DNA of 64,000 bases from contig CAMJKI010000005.1 in assembly GCA_946406355.1 (NCBI GenBank), forward strand, positions 1 through 64,000, in the 5' to 3' direction. A program made the translations under genes and the position numbers. This DNA comes from an uncultured Bacteroidales bacterium. Its GTDB lineage: Bacteria > Bacteroidota > Bacteroidia > Bacteroidales > UBA932. Positions 2,896-34,596 of this stretch are shown here, one piece after another; position 1 is the stretch's first letter; the number at the start of each line of letters is the position of its first letter. The notes beneath the pieces were generated by a model. The model was not told the origin of the DNA, ran no database searches, and saw nothing but the letters and a program-made list of their open reading frames with translations.

Positions 2896-4587
2896 CTATT
2901 TAATCAGATTCCCCAGAATGGAGCGGGTGAGCTCCTTGGTGAGGGTGTTGGTAGCACTCTTGGTGGCCTTGGTGATGGCTTTCTTGCCGGTAGAAGTCTT
3001 GGACGTCTTTTTGGTCCCGGTAATCTTGCCGGTAACGGCATCGGCTGCAGCGGCGGCGGCAACGCCCGTAACAGCGGTTATCACCGACTTCAGCACCTTG
3101 CTGGCAATACTGTTCTTGGCCTTCTTCTGGGCTTCTTTCTGGGCCCTTTCGGCCTCCTTCTGCGCCCGGGCGGCTTCCCTTTCGGCCTCTTTGGCCAGAC
3201 GGGCCTCTTCCTTAGCCTGGATGGCAGCCTGCTTGGCCTCCACTATCCGCTGACGCTCTGCCGCTTCCTCGGCCTCAATTTCTGCTTTCTGCCGCTCGGC
3301 CTCTGCGGTGGCGGTGGTAATGATTTCATAGGCGCTTTCGCGGTCGATGGCGTGGTCGTAACGGCCGAACAGGCGGCTGCGCTTGATAAGATCGGCCCGC
3401 TGTTCTTCTGTGATGGCGCCAATCTGGCTCAGGGGGAACAGAATCTTGGCACGCTCCACCGTGGCAGGGGTGCCCTTTTCGTCCAGGAAGGAAACCAGGG
3501 CTTCGCCGGTTCCCAGCTCCAGCAGCGTGTCGTAGGTGTTGAAGGCGGGGTTGGCGCGGAAGGTATCGGCCGCCACCTTCACGGCCTTCTGGTCCTTGGG
3601 ACTGTAGGCGCGCAGGGCATGCTGCACACGGTTACCCAGCTGACCCAGGATGTCGGACGGAATGTCCGTGGGACTCTGGGTAATGAAATAGATGCCCACG
3701 CCCTTGGAACGGATGAGGCGGATTACCTGCTCAATCTTGTCCGTGAGGGCCTTGGACGTGCCTTCGAACAGCATGTGGGCCTCGTCAAAGAAGAACACCA
3801 GCTTGGGCAGATCCATGTCGCCCACTTCCGGCAGGGTGGCATACAGCTCGCTCAGCAGCCACAGCAGGAAGGTGGAATACAGCTTGGGCTGCAGCATCAG
3901 GCGGTCGGCCGCCAGCACGTTCATGATGCCCTTGCCGCCCTCGCACTGCAGCAGGTCGTAGATGTCGAAGTCCGGCTCACCGAAGAACTTTTCGGCCCCC
4001 TGGTTCTCCAGGGCCAGCAGCGAACGCTGGATGGCGCCGATGGAGGCTGCCGTCACAAAGCCGTACTGCGTGGTATACTCCGAGGCATTCTGGCCCACGA
4101 AGTTGAGCATGGCCTTGAGGTCCTTGATGTCTATGAGCAGCAGGCCGTTGTCATCGGCAATCTTGAAGACCACGTTCAGCACACCGGTCTGGGTTTCATT
4201 CAGGTCCATCAGGCGGCCCAGCATCTCCGGTCCCATGCGGGAAATGGTGGAGCGCATGGGATGGCCCTGCTCGCCGTACACATCAAAGAAACGCACCGGG
4301 CAGCTCTGGAACTGCGGATTCTCTATGCCGAACTCCGGCAGGCGCTTCTCGATGAAACCGGAAAGCTTACCCACTTGGGAAATGCCGCTCAGGTCCCCCT
4401 TCATGTCGGCCATGAAGCAGGGCACGCCGGCCTGGCAGAAAGTCTCGGCCAGCACCTGCAGGGTGACGGTTTTACCGGTACCGGTAGCGCCGGCAATGAG
4501 TCCGTGCCGGTTGGCCATCTTCCCAATCAGCGAGATGGGTCCGTTGTTGGAGTGGGCGACATACAGCCCTCTTTCTTTATCTAACAT
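2896..4587 (-). CDS. HerA-like DUF853 P-loop ATPase (YjgR family)
   Basis: A 563-residue ATPase of the DUF853/YjgR group, related to the HerA/FtsK pumping ATPases. Walker A is GATGTGKT near residues 33-40 and Walker B is LVFFFDEAH; a sensor-like ITQSPTDIP follows. From about 420 the protein becomes a long Glu/Ala/Arg/Lys-rich helix (AERQKAEIEAEEAAERQ, then AREAARAQKEAERAQKE) and ends in a Lys/Thr/Ser-rich basic tail. That looks like a coiled coil plus a nucleic-acid or membrane-contacting tail. The biological role of the family is unknown. It lies downstream of cstA on the same strand, with palindromic repeat copy A in between. Confidence 0.9.
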   Translation of the reverse strand: MLDKERGLYVAHSNNGPISLIGKMANRHGLIAGATGTGKTVTLQVLAETFCQAGVPCFMADMKGDLSGISQVGKLSGFIEKRLPEFGIENPQFQSCPVRFFDVYGEQGHPMRSTISRMGPEMLGRLMDLNETQTGVLNVVFKIADDNGLLLIDIKDLKAMLNFVGQNASEYTTQYGFVTAASIGAIQRSLLALENQGAEKFFGEPDFDIYDLLQCEGGKGIMNVLAADRLMLQPKLYSTFLLWLLSELYATLPEVGDMDLPKLVFFFDEAHMLFEGTSKALTDKIEQVIRLIRSKGVGIYFITQSPTDIPSDILGQLGNRVQHALRAYSPKDQKAVKVAADTFRANPAFNTYDTLLELGTGEALVSFLDEKGTPATVERAKILFPLSQIGAITEEQRADLIKRSRLFGRYDHAIDRESAYEIITTATAEAERQKAEIEAEEAAERQRIVEAKQAAIQAKEEARLAKEAEREAARAQKEAERAQKEAQKKAKNSIASKVLKSVITAVTGVAAAAAADAVTGKITGTKKTSKTSTGKKAITKATKSATNTLTKELTRSILGNLIK

Positions 4588-4626
4588 ATTGCGAAATGTA
4601 TGTGGTTAATATTCAGCAACTTGCGT

Positions 4627-4698
4627 GTTTCCCGGTGCAATCTGATTTGCACCGGGAAACACTTAACTTGTTAATTCCTAGCAGTTTGCATTTTGCGG
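4627..4698 (-). repeat. REP-like palindromic element, copy A
   Basis: Perfect 14-bp arms (GTTTCCCGGTGCAA and its complement) around the loop TCTGAT at 4627-4660. On the right follows the family's 'left module', read on the minus strand (CCGCAAAATGCAAACTGC at 4681-4698 and a TTAA foot). That module overlaps the 3' end of cstA: its last codons (K-M-Q-T-A-R-N and TAA) lie inside the element. Confidence 0.85.
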
Positions 4699-8159: not shown

Positions 8160-9239
8160 ATGCTTAGTATTCGGCAAGACAGCCTTTTAAGGTTTCAAGC
8201 GCTTATAGACGGTGCCACGCGGATAACCGTCCTGGGACATACGCACCCGGACGGAGACGCCCTGGGCTGCACCGGAGCGCTGGCCGGATACCTTCGCGAA
8301 GTACGGGGAAAAGAGGCCGCCGTGGTTCTGCCGGACACCCCGGCCGACAACCTTCGCTTCATCGTTCCCCCGTCCTGTCCCCTGCTGTGCTATGACAAAG
8401 AGCCCCAGGCAGTTCTGGACTGGATTGCCGGCAGCAACCTGATTGTGTTGCTGGACTGCAACGGCTTCTCCCGCACAGAGGCCTTGGAGCCCTTCCTGAC
8501 AGCCTCCAAGGCCCCCAAGGTACTCATCGACCATCATCTGAATCCGCAGGTACAAAGCTTCAACGTGATTTTCTCCACCCCGGACATCTCCTCCGCCTCG
8601 GAGTTGCTTTTTTGGGTATTGAAAAGTCTGGAGGGCAACGTCCCTTCGGTCACTGAAAAGATAGCCGATGTTCCCTTCGGGACGTCGCCCTCCAGCCCAG
8701 CATACCTGACTATCGGCACCTGCCTGCTGGCGGGGATGACCACGGATACCAACAATTTTGCCAATTCGGTATTTCCCAGCACGCTGCAGATGGCTTCCGA
8801 ACTGTTGGCGCTGGGGGTAGACCGGGACGCCCTGCTGCTGCAACTGTACAGCAGTTACCGGGAAAACCGGGTGCGTCTGTTCGGCCACATGCAGGAGCAG
8901 GAGCTCCGCATCCTGGGCTGCGCCGCCTGCATGATCCTTACCCGGGAGCTGCAACAGCGCTTCGACGTACGGGAAGGCGAGACGGAAGGCCTGGTGAACG
9001 TGCCCCTATCCATTGCCGATGTGCGCCTTAGCATCTTCCTGAAAGAGGACGACAGACACTTCCGCGTATCCATCCGTTCCAAAAAAGGGACATCGGCCCA
9101 ACAGCTGGCCATGCAATACTTCCACGGGGGCGGACACGAGAACGCCGCCGGAGGAAAACTGTTTATCGGCCAGGATATTGCCCGGGCCGATGAAGCCGCC
9201 GCCTATGTAGAATCCGCTTTAAAATCTTTCCTGTCATGA
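8160..9239 (+). CDS. DHH/DHHA1 phosphoesterase (NrnA-like nanoRNase/pAp phosphatase)
   Basis: A 359-residue DHH-superfamily phosphoesterase of the NrnA type, expected to degrade short oligonucleotides and 3',5'-pAp with Mn2+. Metal-site motifs are HTHPDGDALG (near 27-36), LLDCN, IDHHLNP (the DHH motif, about 123-129) and TDTNNF. The DHHA1 substrate-binding domain ends in GGGHENAAGG. It is slightly longer than typical members because a palindromic element is inserted in frame at 8628-8695 (about residues 157-179, LEGNVPSVTEKIADVPFGTS), between DHH-domain elements. The stop overlaps the next start (ATGA). The catalytic motifs are intact, so the insertion is presumably tolerated. Confidence 0.9.
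   Translation: MLSIRQDSLLRFQALIDGATRITVLGHTHPDGDALGCTGALAGYLREVRGKEAAVVLPDTPADNLRFIVPPSCPLLCYDKEPQAVLDWIAGSNLIVLLDCNGFSRTEALEPFLTASKAPKVLIDHHLNPQVQSFNVIFSTPDISSASELLFWVLKSLEGNVPSVTEKIADVPFGTSPSSPAYLTIGTCLLAGMTTDTNNFANSVFPSTLQMASELLALGVDRDALLLQLYSSYRENRVRLFGHMQEQELRILGCAACMILTRELQQRFDVREGETEGLVNVPLSIADVRLSIFLKEDDRHFRVSIRSKKGTSAQQLAMQYFHGGGHENAAGGKLFIGQDIARADEAAAYVESALKSFLS
8628..8695. repeat. In-frame palindromic insertion inside the DHH phosphoesterase gene
   Basis: Arms CTGGAGGGCAACGTCCC (8628-8644) and the complement of CTGGAGGGCGACGTCCC (8679-8695) differ at one base. They enclose a core containing GAAAAGATAGCCGATG. The polA element at 24268-24331 has the same core and layout. Read on the opposite strand, both encode related peptides: GDVPKGTSAIFSVTEG here and GDVPFSVASAIFFAEEKG in polA. 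Confidence 0.75.
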
Positions 9240-17728: not shown

Positions 17729-17837
17729 GTTGCAGAATGCAACTTGCTGATGCTTAGCTACTTAACTGTTTCCCGGTGCAATTTAATTTGCACCGGGAAA
17801 CCTTTTATCCGCTCTGTATCAAGTAGTTCCGTTCTGC
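17729..17837 (+). repeat. REP-like palindromic element, copy B (full length)
   Basis: Central palindrome 17768-17801: 14-bp arms GTTTCCCGGTGCAA around the loop TTTAAT. The left module starts with a small hairpin (GTTGCAGAATGCAAC, 17729-17743) and has a TTAACT foot. The right module contains CGCTCTGTATCA and ends GTTCCGTTCTGC. It begins 17 nt after the ettA stop. Confidence 0.88.
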
Positions 17838-17857
17838 GCTAATCTTTGGGTATGCGG

Positions 17858-20071: not shown

Positions 20072-20190
20072 GCCATTGCGGTCTGCGAAATGCAAGCTGC
20101 TGTTTTTCAGCGATTTAACTGTTTCCCGGTGCAATTAGATTTGCACCGGGAAACCCTTTATTCGCTCTGTATCAGGCAGTTCCGTTCTGC
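20072..20190 (+). repeat. REP-like palindromic element, copy C (full length, at RAYT 3' end)
   Basis: Palindrome 20121-20154 (14-bp arms, loop TTAGAT), left module from about 20072 (ATTGCG...AATGCAAGCTGCTG, TTTAACT foot) and right module CTTTATTCGCTCTGTATCAG through GTTCTGC at 20190. The RAYT stop codon (20172-20174) and its last codons (E-S-Q-N-G-T-A) fall in or beside the right module. Confidence 0.88.
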
Positions 20191-21113
20191 GACTCTTTTG
20201 CCAAGTGAAGGAACTTCCGGACTTGATAGGGTTTTGCTCCGGTTTCCCGAACCAGAATATCGGCAATAGCAAGCTTCTGGCCGATTGGCAGAGCCAGAAG
20301 GGCCGGGATGTTCGCGGCATAACTGGAGCGCCTGCATACTTCCAGCATGCTCTCATAAATCTGGTCGGAATTACTGTCGTGCTGTTCCTTGATGTCATAC
20401 TCTGACCCAGTATTGGAGTTTATGGCAATCAGCATAGTTTCATAATCTCCATAGCAGGCAATCAGTGCTTCTTTATCCAAAGGCAGGTACTTGCCGATGA
20501 TATAATCCGTAAGCTGTTCACTCTCACTTTCAGTCAGTTTTTCATACATGCTTCTCAATACGGGATAATCCAACCATATTTGACGCTTATATAATGCATC
20601 CACCCTGGTTAGAGCTATCATGAGCCGATGAGAACACCTTCGCCTGTCAATCTTTTCGGAAAACGGATGATCCGAGTTAAGGTAGGCCAGAAAGTTCCAT
20701 CGACAGTCTTCGGCCCGATTCCCCAATTTCTTTTCTACGTGATTGTTGAATAAATAGGCAATGGCAGTCCGTATCTTCTTTAAGCCGATTTTGGGAGCAT
20801 TGCCATATGCCTTGCGAAAAATGGGCCCCTTCCTGCCGGAGTTCCTATTGAAAGCCAGCACATATTTGGAAGTATATTCTCCCACGAACAGAGACATTAT
20901 CTCTGTGGCAAACACCTGAACCAGCGAGTGAATATGGTCAAACATCAGACACAACCCCCAAACAGGAACGCCGTATTTCTTGGCAGCGATTGAGTAGATA
21001 GTCAGGAACACAAGCCTGTCCAAAACGGAATAAAAGAGCAGCTTTCCGTCATAAGTGTTCTGGTAAATGTGTTGCAGACCTTCTTCCTGCACTTTCCTTT
21101 TTACGCCCCGCAT
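20172..21113 (-). CDS. REP-associated tyrosine transposase (RAYT, IS200/Y1 family)
   Basis: A 313-residue Y1-type HUH transposase. The metal-binding HUH motif is FDHIHSLV (His60, His62) where classical members have PNHVHLLV. Downstream EYTSKYVLAFNRNSGRKG matches the RAYT pattern around the catalytic tyrosine (Tyr80 or Tyr84), followed by PIFRKAYGN and the helix AYLFNNHVEKKLG. It is longer than a minimal TnpA because of a C-terminal domain with a helix-turn-helix-like end (KLAIADILVRETGAKPYQVRKFL). It is flanked by inverted copies C and D of the same palindrome. The start at 21113 (MRGVKRKV) excludes codons lying in repeat D. It looks AT-richer than its neighbours and intact. Confidence 0.85.
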   Translation of the reverse strand: MRGVKRKVQEEGLQHIYQNTYDGKLLFYSVLDRLVFLTIYSIAAKKYGVPVWGLCLMFDHIHSLVQVFATEIMSLFVGEYTSKYVLAFNRNSGRKGPIFRKAYGNAPKIGLKKIRTAIAYLFNNHVEKKLGNRAEDCRWNFLAYLNSDHPFSEKIDRRRCSHRLMIALTRVDALYKRQIWLDYPVLRSMYEKLTESESEQLTDYIIGKYLPLDKEALIACYGDYETMLIAINSNTGSEYDIKEQHDSNSDQIYESMLEVCRRSSYAANIPALLALPIGQKLAIADILVRETGAKPYQVRKFLHLAKESQNGTA

Positions 21114-21145
21114 AATATAACTCCTTGATTCTTTGTGTTTTGAAT

Positions 21146-21217
21146 ACTTCCCGGTGCAATTAGATTTGCACCGGGAAACAGTTATTATCAACAGTATGAG
21201 GAAGTTACATTTTGCAT
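21146..21217 (-). repeat. REP-like palindromic element, copy D (at RAYT 5' side, inverted to C)
   Basis: Arms TTCCCGGTGCAA (21148-21159) and complement (21166-21177), loop TTAGAT. One outer end is degenerate (ACTT instead of GTTT). The rightward flank, read on the minus strand, is a decayed left module (ATGCAAAATGTAACTTCC...AATAACT), so the copy is inverted relative to copy C. Confidence 0.8.
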
Positions 21218-22572: not shown

Positions 22573-25200
22573 TTAATGGGCTTCCAGCCAGTTCTTTCCG
22601 GCGGAACATTCTACAATCAGGGGAACGGACAGCTCCATCACGTGCTCCATCACGTCCACCACTATTTCCTTAAGCCTATCCACCTCTTGCGGCAGGGCAT
22701 CGAACAGCAGTTCGTCATGGATTTGCAGCACCATGCGGCTCTTCAGGCCTTCTTCCTTAAGCCGCCGGGCCACGCCTATCATGGCCAGCTTGATGATATC
22801 GGCCGATGTCCCCTGGATGGGGGCGTTAACGGCGTTGCGTTCGGCCAGGGCACGGACGGTGGCGTTGCGGGCAGTGATGTCCGGCAGGTAACGCCGGCGC
22901 CCGAAGAGCGTTTCCACATAACCGTTCTCCCGGGCGAAGGCAATGCTGCTGTCAATGAAGGAACGGATGGCCGGGAAGGATGCAAAGTAACCGTCTATCA
23001 GCTCTTTGGCAGCACTGCGCGAAAGGTGCAGGCGCTGCGCCAGGCCAAAGGAAGAGATGCCATACATGATGCCGAAATTGGCCGTCTTGGCCATACCCCG
23101 CTGCTCACGCGTAACCTCCTGAACCGGAATGCCGAAGATTTTGGCGGCCGTGGCGGCGTGCACGTCCACCCCCTCGCGGAAAGCCTGCACCAGATGGGTG
23201 TCCTGGCTCAGGTGCGCCATGATGCGCAGCTCTATCTGCGAGTAGTCGGCACTTACAATTACGCCGTCCGGTGCACCGGGGATGAAGGCCTTGCGGATTT
23301 CCTTGCCGCGCTCGGTACGCACGGGGATATTCTGCAGGTTGGGGTTAGAGCTGGAAAGCCTTCCCGTTGCCGTAAGTGCCTGGTTGAACGTGGTATGCAC
23401 CCGTCCGTCCTTGGGCGAAATGTAGGAAGGGAACGGCTCTATATAGGTGGAAAGCAGCTTTTTCACCGCCCGGAATTCCAGGATTTCCTCTACCACGGGA
23501 TGGCGGTCGGCTATGGCCAGGAGGGTGGCTTCGTCGGTAGGATACTGGCCGGCCTTGCCGCTCTTTTTGGCCTTGGGATCCAACTTCAGCTTCTCAAAAA
23601 GCACATCGCCCACCTGCTTGGGGGAGGAGATATTCAGCGCCGGCTCCTGCACCATCTCACGGATACGGATTTCCCGTTCCGCCAGTTCTTTCCGGAGTCC
23701 GTCGGCATATACGCGAATCTGTTCCAAATCTACCTTTACGCCGTCCCGTTCCATCTGCGCCAGCACCTTGGCCAGCGGTTCCTCCATAGATCCGTAAAAT
23801 GGAGGCAGGCTTTCCCGGAGCCTTTCGCCCAGGGGGATCAGCACCGCCGCTTCCTTCAGTCGGGAAGGTTCGGCCTCATCGGGCACGTCGTCAAACAGAG
23901 AGCCGGTAACGGCCGATTCCGGGGCCTCTTCCAGGCTCACACCCAAATAGGTCTGCGCCAGGGCAGCCAGCTCGTGGCTGCGCTCCGGATTCAGGACATA
24001 GTGCATGAGCGGGATATCGTACCAGGTCCCTTCCAGGCCGATTCCTTCGGCCGCCAGGGCATTGGCCATCCGCTTAAGGTCCACTCCATACTTGGCCACC
24101 GCAGCGTCTTCCAGCACGTTTCGGCCTTCCAGCAAGGGCATGGTTGCCACCTTCCCCTCAGCTGCCAGCAACAGCTGGTTTCCATTAAGAACCAACCCGG
24201 CTTTACCAGATTTCTTAGCGGCTATAAGGACATCTTTAACAGGGGAAATAACCAGATTTTCCGGAACGGGGGATGTCCCCTTTTCCGTAGCATCGGCTAT
24301 ATTTTTCGCGGAGGAAAAGGGGGTATCCCCCATCCCTGCCTTGAGATACTTTTTCAGCGAAGCAAACTCGTACTTCTGGAACAGATCGGCCAGTACGGGT
24401 TGGAACTGGCCCGTGTAGCGCATGTCTTCCAGCGTTACGGGCAGTTCCATGTCGGTTTTGATGGTTACCAGCGTTTTGGACAGGGCCATGTGGGGTTCGG
24501 CCTCCCGGAACTGGTCCTGCTGGCGAGCGCTCAGTTCATCCAGATGGGCGTAAATGTTCTCCATGCTGCCATACTTGGCAATGAGTTTGGCGGCGCCTAC
24601 CTCTCCAACGCCCTTTACGCCCGGCACATTGTCGGCCGAATCGCCGCAAAGAGCCAGCATATCAATCACTTGCAACGGGCTAGAGATACCCCATTTCTCG
24701 CACAGGGCAGCGCTGTCCACCAGTTCCGCCTCGGCCCCGGATTTGCCGGGCTTCAGCTGGAAGGCATGCGGGCCGATGAGCTGACCGTAGTCCTTGTCCG
24801 GCGTTACCATGTACACGTCCAACTGTTCCGATGCAAATTGCGTGGCGATGGACCCCAGCACATCATCGGCCTCAAAGCCGGGGATGGTGAGCACGGGAAT
24901 ATTCATGGCCTGCACCAATTCCGTGAGCGGCTGCAGGGCGTCTATAACCAGCTGCGGGGTTGGCGGACGAGTACCTTTGTACTCCGGATACAACTGATTG
25001 CGAAAGGTGCCGCCCGGCGGGTCGAAGGCCACAAGCAGATGCGTAGGCTTCTCCCGCTCAATCATTTCCAGCAGGTACTTGGTAAACCCGTACAGAATGG
25101 ACATATCGGCTCCCTGGGAGTTGATCATGGGCCTGCGCAGGAAGGCGTAATACATTTTGAACACCAGCGCGTGCCCGTCTATGAGGAAGAGTTTTGCCAT
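22573..25200 (-). CDS. polA: DNA polymerase I, proofreading domain degenerate
   Basis: An 875-residue family A DNA polymerase for Okazaki fragment processing and repair. The 5'-3' nuclease domain (1 to about 285) opens LFLIDGHALVFKMYYAF, with FEADDVLGS and TPDKDYGQL. The polymerase domain (about 480-875) has motif A VSADYSQIELRIMAHLS, motif B RGMAKTANFGIMYG and motif C VLQIHDELLFD. The middle exonuclease-like domain is short and lacks every catalytic carboxylate: the DTE position reads VLNGN, the exoII Asp is Met (DLKRM), and the exoIII Asp is Ala. A palindromic element is inserted in frame at about residues 290-311, in the linker after the 5' nuclease. E. coli PolA is 928 residues. Confidence 0.95.
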   Translation of the reverse strand: MAKLFLIDGHALVFKMYYAFLRRPMINSQGADMSILYGFTKYLLEMIEREKPTHLLVAFDPPGGTFRNQLYPEYKGTRPPTPQLVIDALQPLTELVQAMNIPVLTIPGFEADDVLGSIATQFASEQLDVYMVTPDKDYGQLIGPHAFQLKPGKSGAEAELVDSAALCEKWGISSPLQVIDMLALCGDSADNVPGVKGVGEVGAAKLIAKYGSMENIYAHLDELSARQQDQFREAEPHMALSKTLVTIKTDMELPVTLEDMRYTGQFQPVLADLFQKYEFASLKKYLKAGMGDTPFSSAKNIADATEKGTSPVPENLVISPVKDVLIAAKKSGKAGLVLNGNQLLLAAEGKVATMPLLEGRNVLEDAAVAKYGVDLKRMANALAAEGIGLEGTWYDIPLMHYVLNPERSHELAALAQTYLGVSLEEAPESAVTGSLFDDVPDEAEPSRLKEAAVLIPLGERLRESLPPFYGSMEEPLAKVLAQMERDGVKVDLEQIRVYADGLRKELAEREIRIREMVQEPALNISSPKQVGDVLFEKLKLDPKAKKSGKAGQYPTDEATLLAIADRHPVVEEILEFRAVKKLLSTYIEPFPSYISPKDGRVHTTFNQALTATGRLSSSNPNLQNIPVRTERGKEIRKAFIPGAPDGVIVSADYSQIELRIMAHLSQDTHLVQAFREGVDVHAATAAKIFGIPVQEVTREQRGMAKTANFGIMYGISSFGLAQRLHLSRSAAKELIDGYFASFPAIRSFIDSSIAFARENGYVETLFGRRRYLPDITARNATVRALAERNAVNAPIQGTSADIIKLAMIGVARRLKEEGLKSRMVLQIHDELLFDALPQEVDRLKEIVVDVMEHVMELSVPLIVECSAGKNWLEAH
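24268..24331. repeat. In-frame palindromic insertion inside polA
   Basis: Arms at 24268-24286 and 24313-24331 (GGGGGATACCCCCTTTTCC and a near-complementary partner) enclose a core with GAAAAATATAGCCGATG on the coding strand. The length (64 bp plus edges) keeps the frame open on both strands. It is homologous to the 8628-8695 element by core, layout and translated reverse strand. Confidence 0.75.
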
Positions 25201-25514: not shown

Positions 25515-25526
25515 GTTGCAGGGACT

Positions 25527-25637
25527 GCAGAATGGAACTGCCTGATACAGAGCGAATAAAGGGTTTCCCGGTGCAAATCTAATTGCACCGGGAAACAATT
25601 AAGTGGCTAAGCAGCAGCGAGTTGCATTCCGCAACGG
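25527..25637 (-). repeat. REP-like palindromic element, copy E (full length)
   Basis: Palindrome 25563-25596 (14-bp arms, loop ATCTAA). Read on the minus strand the order is left module (CCGTTGCGGAATGCAAC hairpin at the 25637 end, TTAATT foot), palindrome, right module (CCTTTATTCGCTCTGTATCA, then GTTCCATTCTGC). The MFS transporter stop codon (25638-25640) abuts the left module directly. Confidence 0.88.
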
Positions 25638-30611: not shown

Positions 30612-33392
30612 TCAATCAATTCTAGCTGTTTCCATTTCACCGGTATAACGGACAGTAACGCTGCCTGCAGCATCCGGATCATAGCCGAAAGGATGCATGG
30701 GGTCGGCCACCACAACGCGGAAGCTGCGTTCCTGCAGCATGCCCGGGAAGGAGCCTTCCCGCTTGCCGATGGTGAGGGTGCGCTCGGCATCGTTCCAATC
30801 CAGGCCGATGGTGGCGAAGGCGCCTTTTTCGTAGCCGTAGGTGAGGCCGTCGTCCTCGTACAGAGTAAAGTGGGCGTCGGCACCGGCGTACACAATCAGG
30901 AGAAGGTTATCGGCCGGTTTCTCGTCGCTCCATTCCATGTCCGGGCCCACGGGGAGGATGCTGCCGGCCCGCACGTACAGCGGCATACGCTCGTAGGGAG
31001 CGTCCACCGTAAGTGTGAGGCCGCCAGGGATATAAGCACCGGAATAGAAGTCGTACCAGCCGCCCTCGGGGAAGTACACCTGGCGGCTGCGGGCCTGGTA
31101 CTCATACACCGGGCAGGGCATCAGGGCCGGGCCGAACATCCACTGGTCGGAGAGGTCACGCACCTGCATATCCTGCGGGAAATCCATCGGCAGGCCGCGC
31201 ATGAGGGTGTAATCCTCGCGGTTCACGGCGCCGGCCAGGGAATACAGGTACGGCATCAGGCGATAACGCAGGCGCATGTACCACAGGATGCTCTCGTAGG
31301 CGGGAGTACCAGCATCGGCAATGTACATGAGCTCCCGACGGGGGAACTGTCCGTGGGTGCGGAACAGCGGAACAAAAGTGCCGAACTGGTGCCAGCGGGT
31401 CTGGAGTTCCTGCCATTCAGGCAGGTTGGCCGGGCTGTAGAATTTGTTCATCACCGAGAATCCGCCGATGTCCATGCCCCAGAACGGGATGCCGCTCATG
31501 GAGAAATCCAGGCCGGCGGCCATCTGCATGCGCATATCGGTCCAGGAAGTGCCGATATCGCCGCTCCAGGTGGCGGTGCTGTAACGCTGCTCGCCGATAA
31601 AACCGCTGCGGGTGAGGAGGAATACGCGCTTGTCGGGTTCCACGCTCCGCTGGCCGTTGTAGATGGCATCGGCGTTCACGATGGAATAGGCGTTGAGGTA
31701 TTCGGTGGAAGGGCCCAGGGCCGTGGGGGTTAGCAGCCACTTGAGGTAGTCCATGGGCAGACAGTCGCGCAGGTTGGGTTCGCTGGCGTCCATCCACCAG
31801 GCGTCAATTTTGCGGTTGTACTTGGTGTACAGGCTTTCGTCTATCTGCCGCCAGAACATCTTGCGACCGCCTTCGGCATAGGCGTCATAGAAGGTCTGTT
31901 CGTGTCCCAGCCAGTCCTGCAGGCCCACATCCTCGGCATGGGTATAGGCATAACCGGCTGCCTTCAGTTCCTTGTAATGGTCGGTATTGGTGTAGAATTT
32001 GGGCCAGACGGAAATCATGAAACGGGCGTTCATGGCGTGAACGGCATCCAGCATTCCTTCCGGGTCCGGGAAACGGGTTTCATCAAACTCGTGGCTTCCC
32101 CACTGGTCCTCTTTCCAATAGTGCCAGTCCTGGACGATGTTATCTACCGGAATGTGGCGACGGCGCATTTCGGCCAGCGTTTCCACCAGCTCCTCCTGGG
32201 TGCTGTAGCGCTCGCGGCTCTGCCAGAATCCCAGTACCCACTTGGGCATAACGGGGGCCTTGCCGGTGAGAGTGCGGTATCCGTGAATTACCTCATCGTA
32301 GCTCTTGCCGGCAATGAAGTAATAGTCGGCCTGGGGCTCGAATTCGCTCCAGAAACTGATGCCGGCCTCTTCCTCCGGGGAAAGCAGTTCCGCTACCCGC
32401 AAGCCAATGTAAGAGACATCGCCGTCCGGTTCCCATTCCACCTTGATGGGGGTTTTAACGCCCTTTTCCAGATGGACGGTGAACTTGTAGCTGTTGGGGT
32501 TCCAGGCCGGACGCCAGCGGCGGCTCATTACCTCCTTCCCGTCCACCAGGGTATGCTGGAAGCCAGCGTAATACTGGATAAAGTGGTAATCGGCCGATTC
32601 CGGGGCCTCCAGATAGCCTTCGTAAACGACGCTTGCGCCAGCCAGGGGGACGGCCGGGAGATTCTTCACGTGGAATTCGGTCTCGTAATACAGGCTGTCT
32701 TCGCGCTGCACCAGGAGTTCTCCCTTGGCCGGCCGGTAGGTGCCGGTGAGGGCACCTTCCACGCCGTCTTTGTCGTATAGCTTGAAGGAAGCACCCAGTT
32801 GCTTATAAGGATACGGATTGCCCCAGCGGCTCAGGGAATAGGCATCGAACATCAGACCGTAGCCCTTGGTGGAGACTACCATCGGCACGCTCACCTTGGT
32901 GTTGTACTGGTACAGTTCCTCGCTGCGGTTCTTGTGGTCGAACTCCCCTGCCTGCTGTTGTCCCAGGCCGTAGAAAGACTCGTCGGGCGTGCTGGAGAAC
33001 TGCGTACGCACGCTGTAGGCCTTCTTTCCTTCCACCTCAATGGGCTCAAAGCTGGAACGGCCTTCGCCGGTGAGCAAGTTCCCTTCGGCATCAAAGAAGT
33101 CCACCGTAGCCGTGGCCTTATTCACCACTACGGTAAGGGCCGATGTTTTTACGGTCACCTTGTTTTCGGCCTTCTGCACCGTAAGAGGCTCTGTATAGGC
33201 CTGCTGCGGCACAACGGCCAGGCTCTTGCGGTCCCGGAACTTTCCGTCCGGAGTCTCCGTCACCCGGATCACCTCCGGCGTAATCACCTCCAGGCGAATG
33301 GTCTTGTCCCCGCAGGGAACGCTTACGGTGCTGTTCTGGCTGCAGGCAAATAGCAGCAGCAAACTCGCCAGAGCGAAAAATCCAACTTTCAT
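30612..33392 (-). CDS. GH31 alpha-glycosidase with PA14 insert (alpha-xylosidase-like)
   Basis: A 926-residue lipoprotein (LLLLFACSQ) of GH31. The nucleophile Asp535 lies in AWWMDASEPN; other barrel landmarks are PKWVLGFWQSRERYS, VDNIVQDWHYW, TATWSGDIGTSW and PFWGMDIGGF. A PA14-like beta domain is inserted at about 245-345 (YEGYLEAPESADYHF, VEWEPDGDVSYIGLRV). The PA14-in-GH31 layout is that of xyloglucan alpha-xylosidases from Bacteroides and Cellvibrio, which supports alpha-xylosidase over alpha-glucosidase. Its stop is 4 nt before the GH3 start. Specificity is inferred, not shown. Confidence 0.88.
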   Translation of the reverse strand: MKVGFFALASLLLLFACSQNSTVSVPCGDKTIRLEVITPEVIRVTETPDGKFRDRKSLAVVPQQAYTEPLTVQKAENKVTVKTSALTVVVNKATATVDFFDAEGNLLTGEGRSSFEPIEVEGKKAYSVRTQFSSTPDESFYGLGQQQAGEFDHKNRSEELYQYNTKVSVPMVVSTKGYGLMFDAYSLSRWGNPYPYKQLGASFKLYDKDGVEGALTGTYRPAKGELLVQREDSLYYETEFHVKNLPAVPLAGASVVYEGYLEAPESADYHFIQYYAGFQHTLVDGKEVMSRRWRPAWNPNSYKFTVHLEKGVKTPIKVEWEPDGDVSYIGLRVAELLSPEEEAGISFWSEFEPQADYYFIAGKSYDEVIHGYRTLTGKAPVMPKWVLGFWQSRERYSTQEELVETLAEMRRRHIPVDNIVQDWHYWKEDQWGSHEFDETRFPDPEGMLDAVHAMNARFMISVWPKFYTNTDHYKELKAAGYAYTHAEDVGLQDWLGHEQTFYDAYAEGGRKMFWRQIDESLYTKYNRKIDAWWMDASEPNLRDCLPMDYLKWLLTPTALGPSTEYLNAYSIVNADAIYNGQRSVEPDKRVFLLTRSGFIGEQRYSTATWSGDIGTSWTDMRMQMAAGLDFSMSGIPFWGMDIGGFSVMNKFYSPANLPEWQELQTRWHQFGTFVPLFRTHGQFPRRELMYIADAGTPAYESILWYMRLRYRLMPYLYSLAGAVNREDYTLMRGLPMDFPQDMQVRDLSDQWMFGPALMPCPVYEYQARSRQVYFPEGGWYDFYSGAYIPGGLTLTVDAPYERMPLYVRAGSILPVGPDMEWSDEKPADNLLLIVYAGADAHFTLYEDDGLTYGYEKGAFATIGLDWNDAERTLTIGKREGSFPGMLQERSFRVVVADPMHPFGYDPDAAGSVTVRYTGEMETARID

Positions 33393-33410
33393 AGTGTCAA
33401 TTAATTACGG

Positions 33411-33447
33411 GTTTCCCGGTGCAATTTTATTTGCACCGGGAAACATT
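33411..33447 (-). repeat. REP-like palindromic element, copy F (core only, supplies GH130 stop)
   Basis: Palindrome 33411-33444 (14-bp arms, loop TTTTAT) with only the TTAAAT foot of the left module. The minus strand AATGTTTCCCGGTGCAAATAA-type reading gives N-V-S-R-C-K-stop, so the last codons and the stop of the GH130 gene lie inside the element. It sits 18 nt upstream of the GH31 start. Confidence 0.88.
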
Positions 33448-34596
33448 TAAATTACTGTCTATCAGGTTATTGAGTATCTCAACGGAGAGGCCGGTGCGGA
33501 GACCGTCCGGGGCGGTGTTCAGGCAGTAATCTACCAGGCGGTCCAGCGTAGAGGTGGCTACGTGCATACGGGTATCGGAGGAGGCATAATAGATAAACAC
33601 CTTGCCGTCCTCATCGGCTATCCAGCCGTTTGCAAAGAGGACGTTCATTACGTCGCCGATGTATTCGGGGCCTTCCGGGGCCATGAAGAAGCCGGCCGGA
33701 TTGGCAATCACGCGGGTAGGGTCGTCCAGGGCCGTCATGTACAGGTACAGCACATAGCGGAGGCCGCTGGCGCAGGCACGTACGCCGTGGGCCAGATGCA
33801 GCCAGCCCTGTGGAGTCTTGATGGGGTGCGGGCCCTCGCCGTTCTTCACTTCCATAATGGTATGGTAGTGCCGGCGGTTGATAATCTTTTCCTCGCCGAC
33901 AACGGCATGCTCCATGCTATCCACCAGCGCCCAGCCGATACCGCCGCCGCTGCCGGTGTCGATAAAACCGTCCTGCGGACGCGTGTACAGGGCATATTTA
34001 CCATCCACGAACTCCGGATGCAACACCACGTTGCGCTGCTGGCTCTTGCTCTGCAGGTCCGGCAGGCGCTCCCAGTTCACCAGGTCTTTGGTGCGGGCTA
34101 TTCCGGCAGCCGCCGTAGCGGCCGACAAATCGCCTTCGGCCGAATGATCCTTGCGCTCTACGCAGAAGATGCCGTAAATCCAGCCGTCTTCGTGCGCGGT
34201 AAGGCGCATGTCATATACATTTGTGGCGGGTTCCCCCCACTCCGGCATGGTAATGGGCCGGGGCCAGAAGGTGAAATGGTCCACGCCGTTGGGGCTTTCG
34301 GCCACGGCAAAGAAGCTCTTCCGGTCGGCGCCTTCCACGCGGGCAACCAGCACATACTTTCCTTTCCATTTGATGGCGCCGGAGTTCAGCACGGCATGGA
34401 TGCCGAAGCGTTCCATCAGATAGGGATTACGTTCTTTGTTAAAATCGTAGCGCCACTCCAGGGGGGCATGTTCGGCCGTAAGCACCGGATTTTCGTACCG
34501 TTCATACACGCCGTTGCCCTCGATGGGAGCGTTGGGCCTTTCAATCAGCCGCTGATGCGCCGTCTGCAGCCAGGCTAATCTTTCACTGTAGTTCAT
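33427..34596 (-). CDS. GH130 4-O-beta-D-mannosyl-D-glucose phosphorylase
   Basis: A 389-residue GH130 phosphorylase. It splits beta-1,4-mannosyl-glucose with phosphate into mannose-1-phosphate and glucose in the cytosol. The five-bladed propeller carries the proton-donor Asp129 in NVYDMRLTAHEDGW; phosphate-site and family landmarks include RNVVLHPEF, YALYTRPQDGF, HYHTIMEVKNGEGPHPI and IGDVMNVLFANGW. It resembles GH130_1 enzymes that work with mannobiose 2-epimerase. The start overlaps the GH26 stop by 4 nt. The natural C-terminus appears to have been replaced by six residues read from repeat copy F. Confidence 0.93.
   Translation of the reverse strand: MNYSERLAWLQTAHQRLIERPNAPIEGNGVYERYENPVLTAEHAPLEWRYDFNKERNPYLMERFGIHAVLNSGAIKWKGKYVLVARVEGADRKSFFAVAESPNGVDHFTFWPRPITMPEWGEPATNVYDMRLTAHEDGWIYGIFCVERKDHSAEGDLSAATAAAGIARTKDLVNWERLPDLQSKSQQRNVVLHPEFVDGKYALYTRPQDGFIDTGSGGGIGWALVDSMEHAVVGEEKIINRRHYHTIMEVKNGEGPHPIKTPQGWLHLAHGVRACASGLRYVLYLYMTALDDPTRVIANPAGFFMAPEGPEYIGDVMNVLFANGWIADEDGKVFIYYASSDTRMHVATSTLDRLVDYCLNTAPDGLRTGLSVEILNNLIDSNLNVSRCK

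Follow-up and report, generated by a model that had tools for sequence, protein, structure and literature searches.

The window analysed here, a 64,000-nt stretch of an uncultured Bacteroidales genome, carries two copies of a dispersed palindromic repeat that has a constant loop and variable, covarying arms, and that lies in frame within the genes for an NrnA-type phosphoesterase and DNA polymerase I. This RPE-like coding palindrome resembles known systems and is itself undescribed among the listed hits of the literature searched, from which most subscription journals were excluded. Taken as a whole, the evidence indicates that it is probably a selfish hairpin repeat of RPE type, non-autonomous and confined to one lineage, whose arms are kept by template switching. 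The copies and their host genes are located as follows.

8160..9239, + strand: host gene, NrnA-type DHH/DHHA1 phosphoesterase, 359 aa; ORF open through the element, with Pfam DHH and DHHA1 domains
8628..8644, + strand: left arm of the NrnA copy, CTGGAGGGCAACGTCCC, with 16/17 positions paired with the right arm
8645..8678, + strand: loop of the NrnA copy, 34 nt, with the family core (core match; translation ...SVTEKIADVPF...)
8655-8670, + strand: family core in the loop of the NrnA copy, GAAAAGATAGCCGATG
8679..8695, + strand: right arm of the NrnA copy, GGGACGTCGCCCTCCAG, from inverted-repeat pairing
22573..25200, - strand: second host gene, DNA polymerase I (polA), 875 aa, from ORF and Pfam domains
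24267..24332, - strand: second family copy, reading ...GDTPFSSAKNIADATEKGTSP..., in the polA linker that joins the 5'-3' exonuclease to the 3'-5' exonuclease-like domain

The sequence-only reading had described a 68-bp near-perfect inverted repeat in the NrnA-like gene. The inverted repeat at 8628-8695 is real, but that wording was slightly generous, as the structure consists of 17-bp arms, paired at 16 of 17 positions, with a 34-nt loop between them. The same reading had held that the frame is unbroken and that about 20 residues are added. Both statements agree with our results: the DHH/DHHA1 reading frame is open across its 359 aa, and alignment of NrnA orthologues from the same genus showed that those without the inverted repeat lack the residues, being 12-20 residues shorter at the insert position. 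In the alignment with B. fragilis 4py9/3w5w the insert corresponds to a gap between ...SSASELLFWVLK and CLLAGMTTDTNNF. The closest NrnA orthologues that do have extra residues (in the sister genome G065, and in G028 and G019) carry a palindrome belonging to the family, so the finding that the reading had named as its refutation did not turn up. A covariance model trained on other copies, the NrnA copy being absent from its training set, matched this copy with E = 1.9e-7 in its own genome.

The core had also been noticed in polA, and the polA copy proved to be a member of the same family. Its insertion was shown against repeat-free orthologues: the element occupies the polA site in G065, G102 and G028, whereas G003, G017, G034, G099 and G120 lack it there. 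At both NrnA and polA the insertion sites are variable linkers that are missing in congeners. NrnA of G005 and G061 (L077, L078) has residues derived from a different repeat type at the same site, for example GATACGCTCGGCCCTTTGGGCCTCGGTATGACA, and polA of G061 and G005 (L223, L226) likewise carries a different repeat type at the family's polA site. Because another repeat type occurs at both sites, we conclude that each linker can take in-frame insertions from several repeat families.

The family core occurs dozens of times across the genome. In the 2.34-Mb genome from which the window derives (G000), 68 covariance-model matches represented about 65 sites, with copy counts varying with the covariance model used. 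Copies are mostly 64-72 bp long, roughly 66, and canonical ones align gap-free as a 20-nt arm, a 26-nt loop and a 20-nt arm. The canonical loop, TCCGCGAAAAA[GT]ATAGCCGATGCTAC, is nearly invariant within G000. Conservation is confined to the loop and the inner arm ends; the arms are copy-specific. An inverted-repeat search that was blind to the core recovered the same loops with different arms, and 409 kb of G000 contained, all kinds taken together, 79 tight inverted repeats (arms of 11 bp or more), compared with 7 in order-3 Markov shuffles. Site-specific arms of near-perfect complementarity might be produced if each insertion made its own arms by inverted copying of adjacent host sequence, so that the arms were duplicated target DNA. 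We consider this extremely improbable: a consensus of roughly GGAGRAGANGCCTTTTCC is common to copies and species, so the arms travel with the element, and neither arm is found in repeat-free orthologues.

Under stricter filters, matches were found in 18 of 121 same-genus genomes (41 in G000, 17 in G102, 11 in G028, 10 in G019 and 1-3 in the others). No further match appeared among 393 genomes of the order, where 13 candidates were scored per genome and distant or weak members could escape. The loops of related species are other sequences held within common edges (TTCC-TCCGC...ATGCTCC-GGAA), with variants of 26 nt containing AAGG or AGGG, of 38 nt (TCCGCGTCGCTTCGCGACCCTGTACGGGCAAATGCTCC), and shorter ones. 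The exact loop was found in only one other record of the named collection, the MAG 'Bacteroidales bacterium isolate Tb.RUG.329', which is G065. The distribution is best explained by a family restricted to one lineage, the source being a rumen-type Bacteroidales genome. Both G000 and G065 are draft assemblies, G065 being a MAG, and about 426 kb and 233 kb of them, respectively, were read base by base. An assembly artefact was ruled out, as independent assemblies share the element at the same sites.

Copies occur in unrelated genes and also between genes. Codon usage called 35 of the 46 copies examined coding, with about four at an ORF start or weak and perhaps intergenic. One orientation and phase accounts for 30 of the 35 coding copies (...SSAKKIADATE...), and three are inverted (...ASAIFFAE...); in other species most legible copies are in the same phase, in either orientation. 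The encoded peptide is hydrophilic and linker-like, and the remaining phases give stops or cysteine- and arginine-rich peptides. This phase bias fits the expected residue of purifying selection on random insertions, and an insertion preference may also be its source.

The arms covary along their full length. In 44 copies all 20 of the 20 arm pairs covaried, with 316 double changes and 2 G-U changes in 880 cells. Arm cells were paired in 95.9%, against 61% in shuffles, and double changes were 316 against 84, with 0 of 500 shuffles as high. As pairing had partly guided the choice of this set, a further test took sites by their location, in a comparison with the sister species G065, whose flanks show a nucleotide identity of about 70-92%. 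Of 23 comparable sites, 18 have the palindrome in both genomes, and at least two more are decayed in G065 (C1:78476 and C25:24531). At 12 common sites, whose arm strings were arranged manually for the comparison, both sides had changed at 45 of 240 pair positions, where 13.5 were expected (p = 1.7e-26); the odds ratio for two-sided changes was 54. A length difference was mirrored too: the intergenic copy at C16:13009 reads TTTGCC in one species and TTGCC in the other, with a matching one-base difference in the opposite arm. Orthologous arms were 63% identical on average, compared with 47% for non-orthologous arms, and 8 of 18 exceeded the 95th percentile. This excess of identity indicates that a good part of the copies at common sites are the same insertions.

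Several further features of the arms were recorded. Residual mismatches in 33 canonical G000 copies comprised 15 A.C/C.A and 3 G.T/T.G, read on the core-bearing strand. Three copies on C48 (L055:3336-3401, 3495-3560 and 8367-8432), within a span of about 5 kb, resemble one another in their arms, near-identity being reached in two, and a resemblance also links the counterparts in G065 (L075:5515-5580, L108:874-939); these are the closest arm relatives found between different sites, and local copying or conversion is possible. Partial tandem duplications of half-elements (the core and one arm, two or three times) were seen in L006 (C17) and in L148 and L121 (G065), as expected for slippage or template switching at hairpins.

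Very strong covariation around a conserved loop is the usual sign of structured RNA, and the arms might covary because selection restores pairing in a functional structure such as a regulatory hairpin, a processing site or a translational-bypass element. The details make such a function very improbable. G-U pairs, the usual intermediates, make up 2 of 880 cells, and the residual sense-strand mismatches are mostly A.C, which does not pair in RNA. The single-strand orientation of a structured RNA family is also lacking, as the loop is found in both orientations at common sites; moreover, the copies are scattered over unrelated genes and intergenic DNA, and most congeners are without the element. 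Two-sided changes are poorly explained by selection acting through unpaired or G-U intermediates, which favours copying of one arm from the other.

At 7-8 of the 18 sites that are orthologous between G000 and G065, the loop has opposite orientations in the two species, with the arms retained or recognisably homologous. The clearest instances are C16:13009 and C33:15458; for a ninth candidate, C73:9180, a same-orientation partner fits better, and the candidate at C28:10420 may be an independent insertion. The loop wording also differs by species: nearly all G000 sites read ATAGCC or a close variant, the same sites in G065 read AAGGCC or other forms, and outgroup loops have AAGG or AGGG. These species-specific loops at orthologous sites indicate that in G000 the loops of different sites changed jointly, the arms remaining local.

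Invertons abound in Bacteroidales, and a site-specific DNA invertase that flips the loop would make these elements very short intragenic invertons switching part of a protein. The orientation difference at 7-8 of 18 sites, the conserved loop edges (TTCC-TCCGC and GCTCC-GGAA) and a frame that is open in both orientations would suit such an enzyme. It would, however, have to act on a spacer of just 26 nt and, since the arms differ at every site, to do so with no common recombination site beyond the loop edges. One orientation also dominates in G000, by 30 to 3-4, and the two-sided arm changes and concerted loop wording would be left unexplained. We therefore regard an invertase as very improbable.

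The genome contains other hairpin repeats. A second, unrelated palindrome family is represented by six copies of about 108 nt with the core GTTTCCCGGTGCAA...TTGCACCGGGAAAC, and two of its copies flank a Y1 transposase (RAYT-like) gene at 20172-21191 (-), in a REP-RAYT-like arrangement. Another recurrent small hairpin, TTTCTCCCTGTGA...TCACAGGGAGAAA, has 12-14-bp arms and a 6-8-nt loop. The locations of both are given here.

4590-4697: second palindrome family
17731-17838: second palindrome family
20084-20191: second palindrome family
21109-21216: second palindrome family
25526-25633: second palindrome family
33374-33481: second palindrome family
L057:13210: small hairpin TTTCTCCCTGTGA...TCACAGGGAGAAA
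L060:1179: the same small hairpin
L061:7422: the same small hairpin
L069:11793: the same small hairpin
L072:10416 and 13582: the same small hairpin

REP sequences are also short hairpins, and the genome has two Y1_Tnp genes, one of them in the window, so a transposase, particularly this RAYT, might move the present family as a MITE or REP-type repeat. The palindromes that flank the window RAYT are, however, of the different family (TTTCCCGGTGCAA...), and no copy of the present family was found in the loci around either RAYT. The arms are variable, and there is neither a target-site duplication signal (3-9 bp) nor any conservation of the outer ends. Mobilisation by such a transposase is thus highly improbable. 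The conserved terminal inverted repeats and target-site duplication of MITEs are likewise absent. The arms of REPs are conserved, and REPs lie outside genes; the present family shares with REP/REPIN-RAYT systems the habit of short dispersed hairpins in a RAYT-encoding bacterial genome, but has variable arms, is mostly genic and is unlinked to RAYT genes.

We searched for other traces of mobility. No clean empty site was resolved between G000 and G065; C14:11672 alone looked empty, and its flanks were too poorly aligned for borders to be set. No mobilising enzyme or vehicle was found. A phage vehicle was considered and rejected, as the exact loop patterns had no match in viral contigs. The element is presumably selfish, given its dispersal in unrelated genes, its patchy distribution and its absence from most congeners.

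Polymerase template switching at inverted repeats, coding DNA included, has two published marks, homogenised arms and an inverted spacer (PMC8604942), and template switching has been argued to create and keep perfect hairpins (PMC8794818). Both marks were found here, with arms homogenised and the spacer inverted between relatives. We propose that copies settle in coding and intergenic DNA, where genic ones would persist because, in one codon phase, they read as a hydrophilic linker that does no harm. Arm complementarity would be upheld mainly by DNA synthesis, and not by selection on pairing: a polymerase at the hairpin would switch template and rewrite one arm from the other, so that a substitution or indel is copied into the partner arm, and a switch between strands would leave the loop inverted. 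Template switching is very likely the cause of arm maintenance and loop inversion. We infer that dispersed copies may also trade loops, through gene conversion or ectopic template switching, which would give the species-specific wording; homogenisation of the loop could instead reflect co-evolution with a putative binding protein.

Some points weigh against this model. Template switching is deduced here from its presumed products in the sequence; the 26-nt loop exceeds the 2-5 bp spacer changes reported for yeast (PMC8604942); and the strand bias of the residual mismatches (A.C 15 against G.T 3) is not predicted. It is also conceivable, if rather unlikely, that the replicating unit is the 26-38-nt loop alone, spreading and homogenising between hairpins by ectopic template switching without a transposase, while each site rewrites its own arms.

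Knowledge of coding palindromes in Rickettsia dates from 2000, and RPEs are short selfish palindromic elements found in frame in unrelated Rickettsia genes, housekeeping genes among them (review PMC10969869). The present family, with 30-35 of 46 copies in open frames, is likewise a dispersed palindrome in frame in unrelated genes, and in this habit it bears out the sequence-only reading, which had called it RPE-like and undescribed. RPEs were reportedly described by Ogata et al. in 2000 and 2002. They differ from the present element in being about 150 bp long with a conserved peptide in each copy, compared with about 66 bp and conservation of the loop only. For RPEs, a loss of repeat identity with time is reported (PMC6649704); here the arms change together and stay paired at common sites, although a few copies have decayed. 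Loop-only conservation, covarying variable arms, loop flips and concerted loop change between species are features beyond RPE, and were invisible to a reader of the one sequence.

In its arm behaviour the element resembles the palindromes of nematomorph mitochondria, perfect inverted repeats within protein-coding DNA that evolve yet stay perfect, for which template switching was proposed (PMC6649704). Those palindromes form no dispersed family with a common loop, and their arms encode conserved host residues, whereas here the whole element is an insertion. The inverted repeats studied for template switching (PMC8604942, PMC8794818) show the same arm homogenisation and spacer inversion, coding genes included, but are unrelated chance repeats with short spacers, with no family and no concerted change among dispersed copies. 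PARCELs (PMC2996958) are also bacterial palindromic coding elements of variable sequence; they are tandem 25-residue repeats, imperfectly symmetrical, in genes without a known function that frequently encode membrane proteins, whereas the present element mostly occurs singly, interspersed through conserved genes.

How the arms of coding palindromes evolve, and how such palindromes spread, has long been an open question, for which the dozens of copies of this family now provide a natural record. The same sites in two related species record arm rewriting, loop inversion and loop homogenisation, so that template switching in bacterial coding DNA can be counted for each site and each branch. A further lesson is the warning that very strong covariation is possible without RNA function, and scans for RNA structure would be likely to misread these copies as conserved structured RNAs. 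The family shows, too, that housekeeping proteins, NrnA and polA included, grow in frame by dispersed repeats. If the loop alone were the replicating unit, this would be a self-maintaining mobile hairpin dependent on nothing but the replication machinery, and a steady source of new in-frame linkers for proteins.
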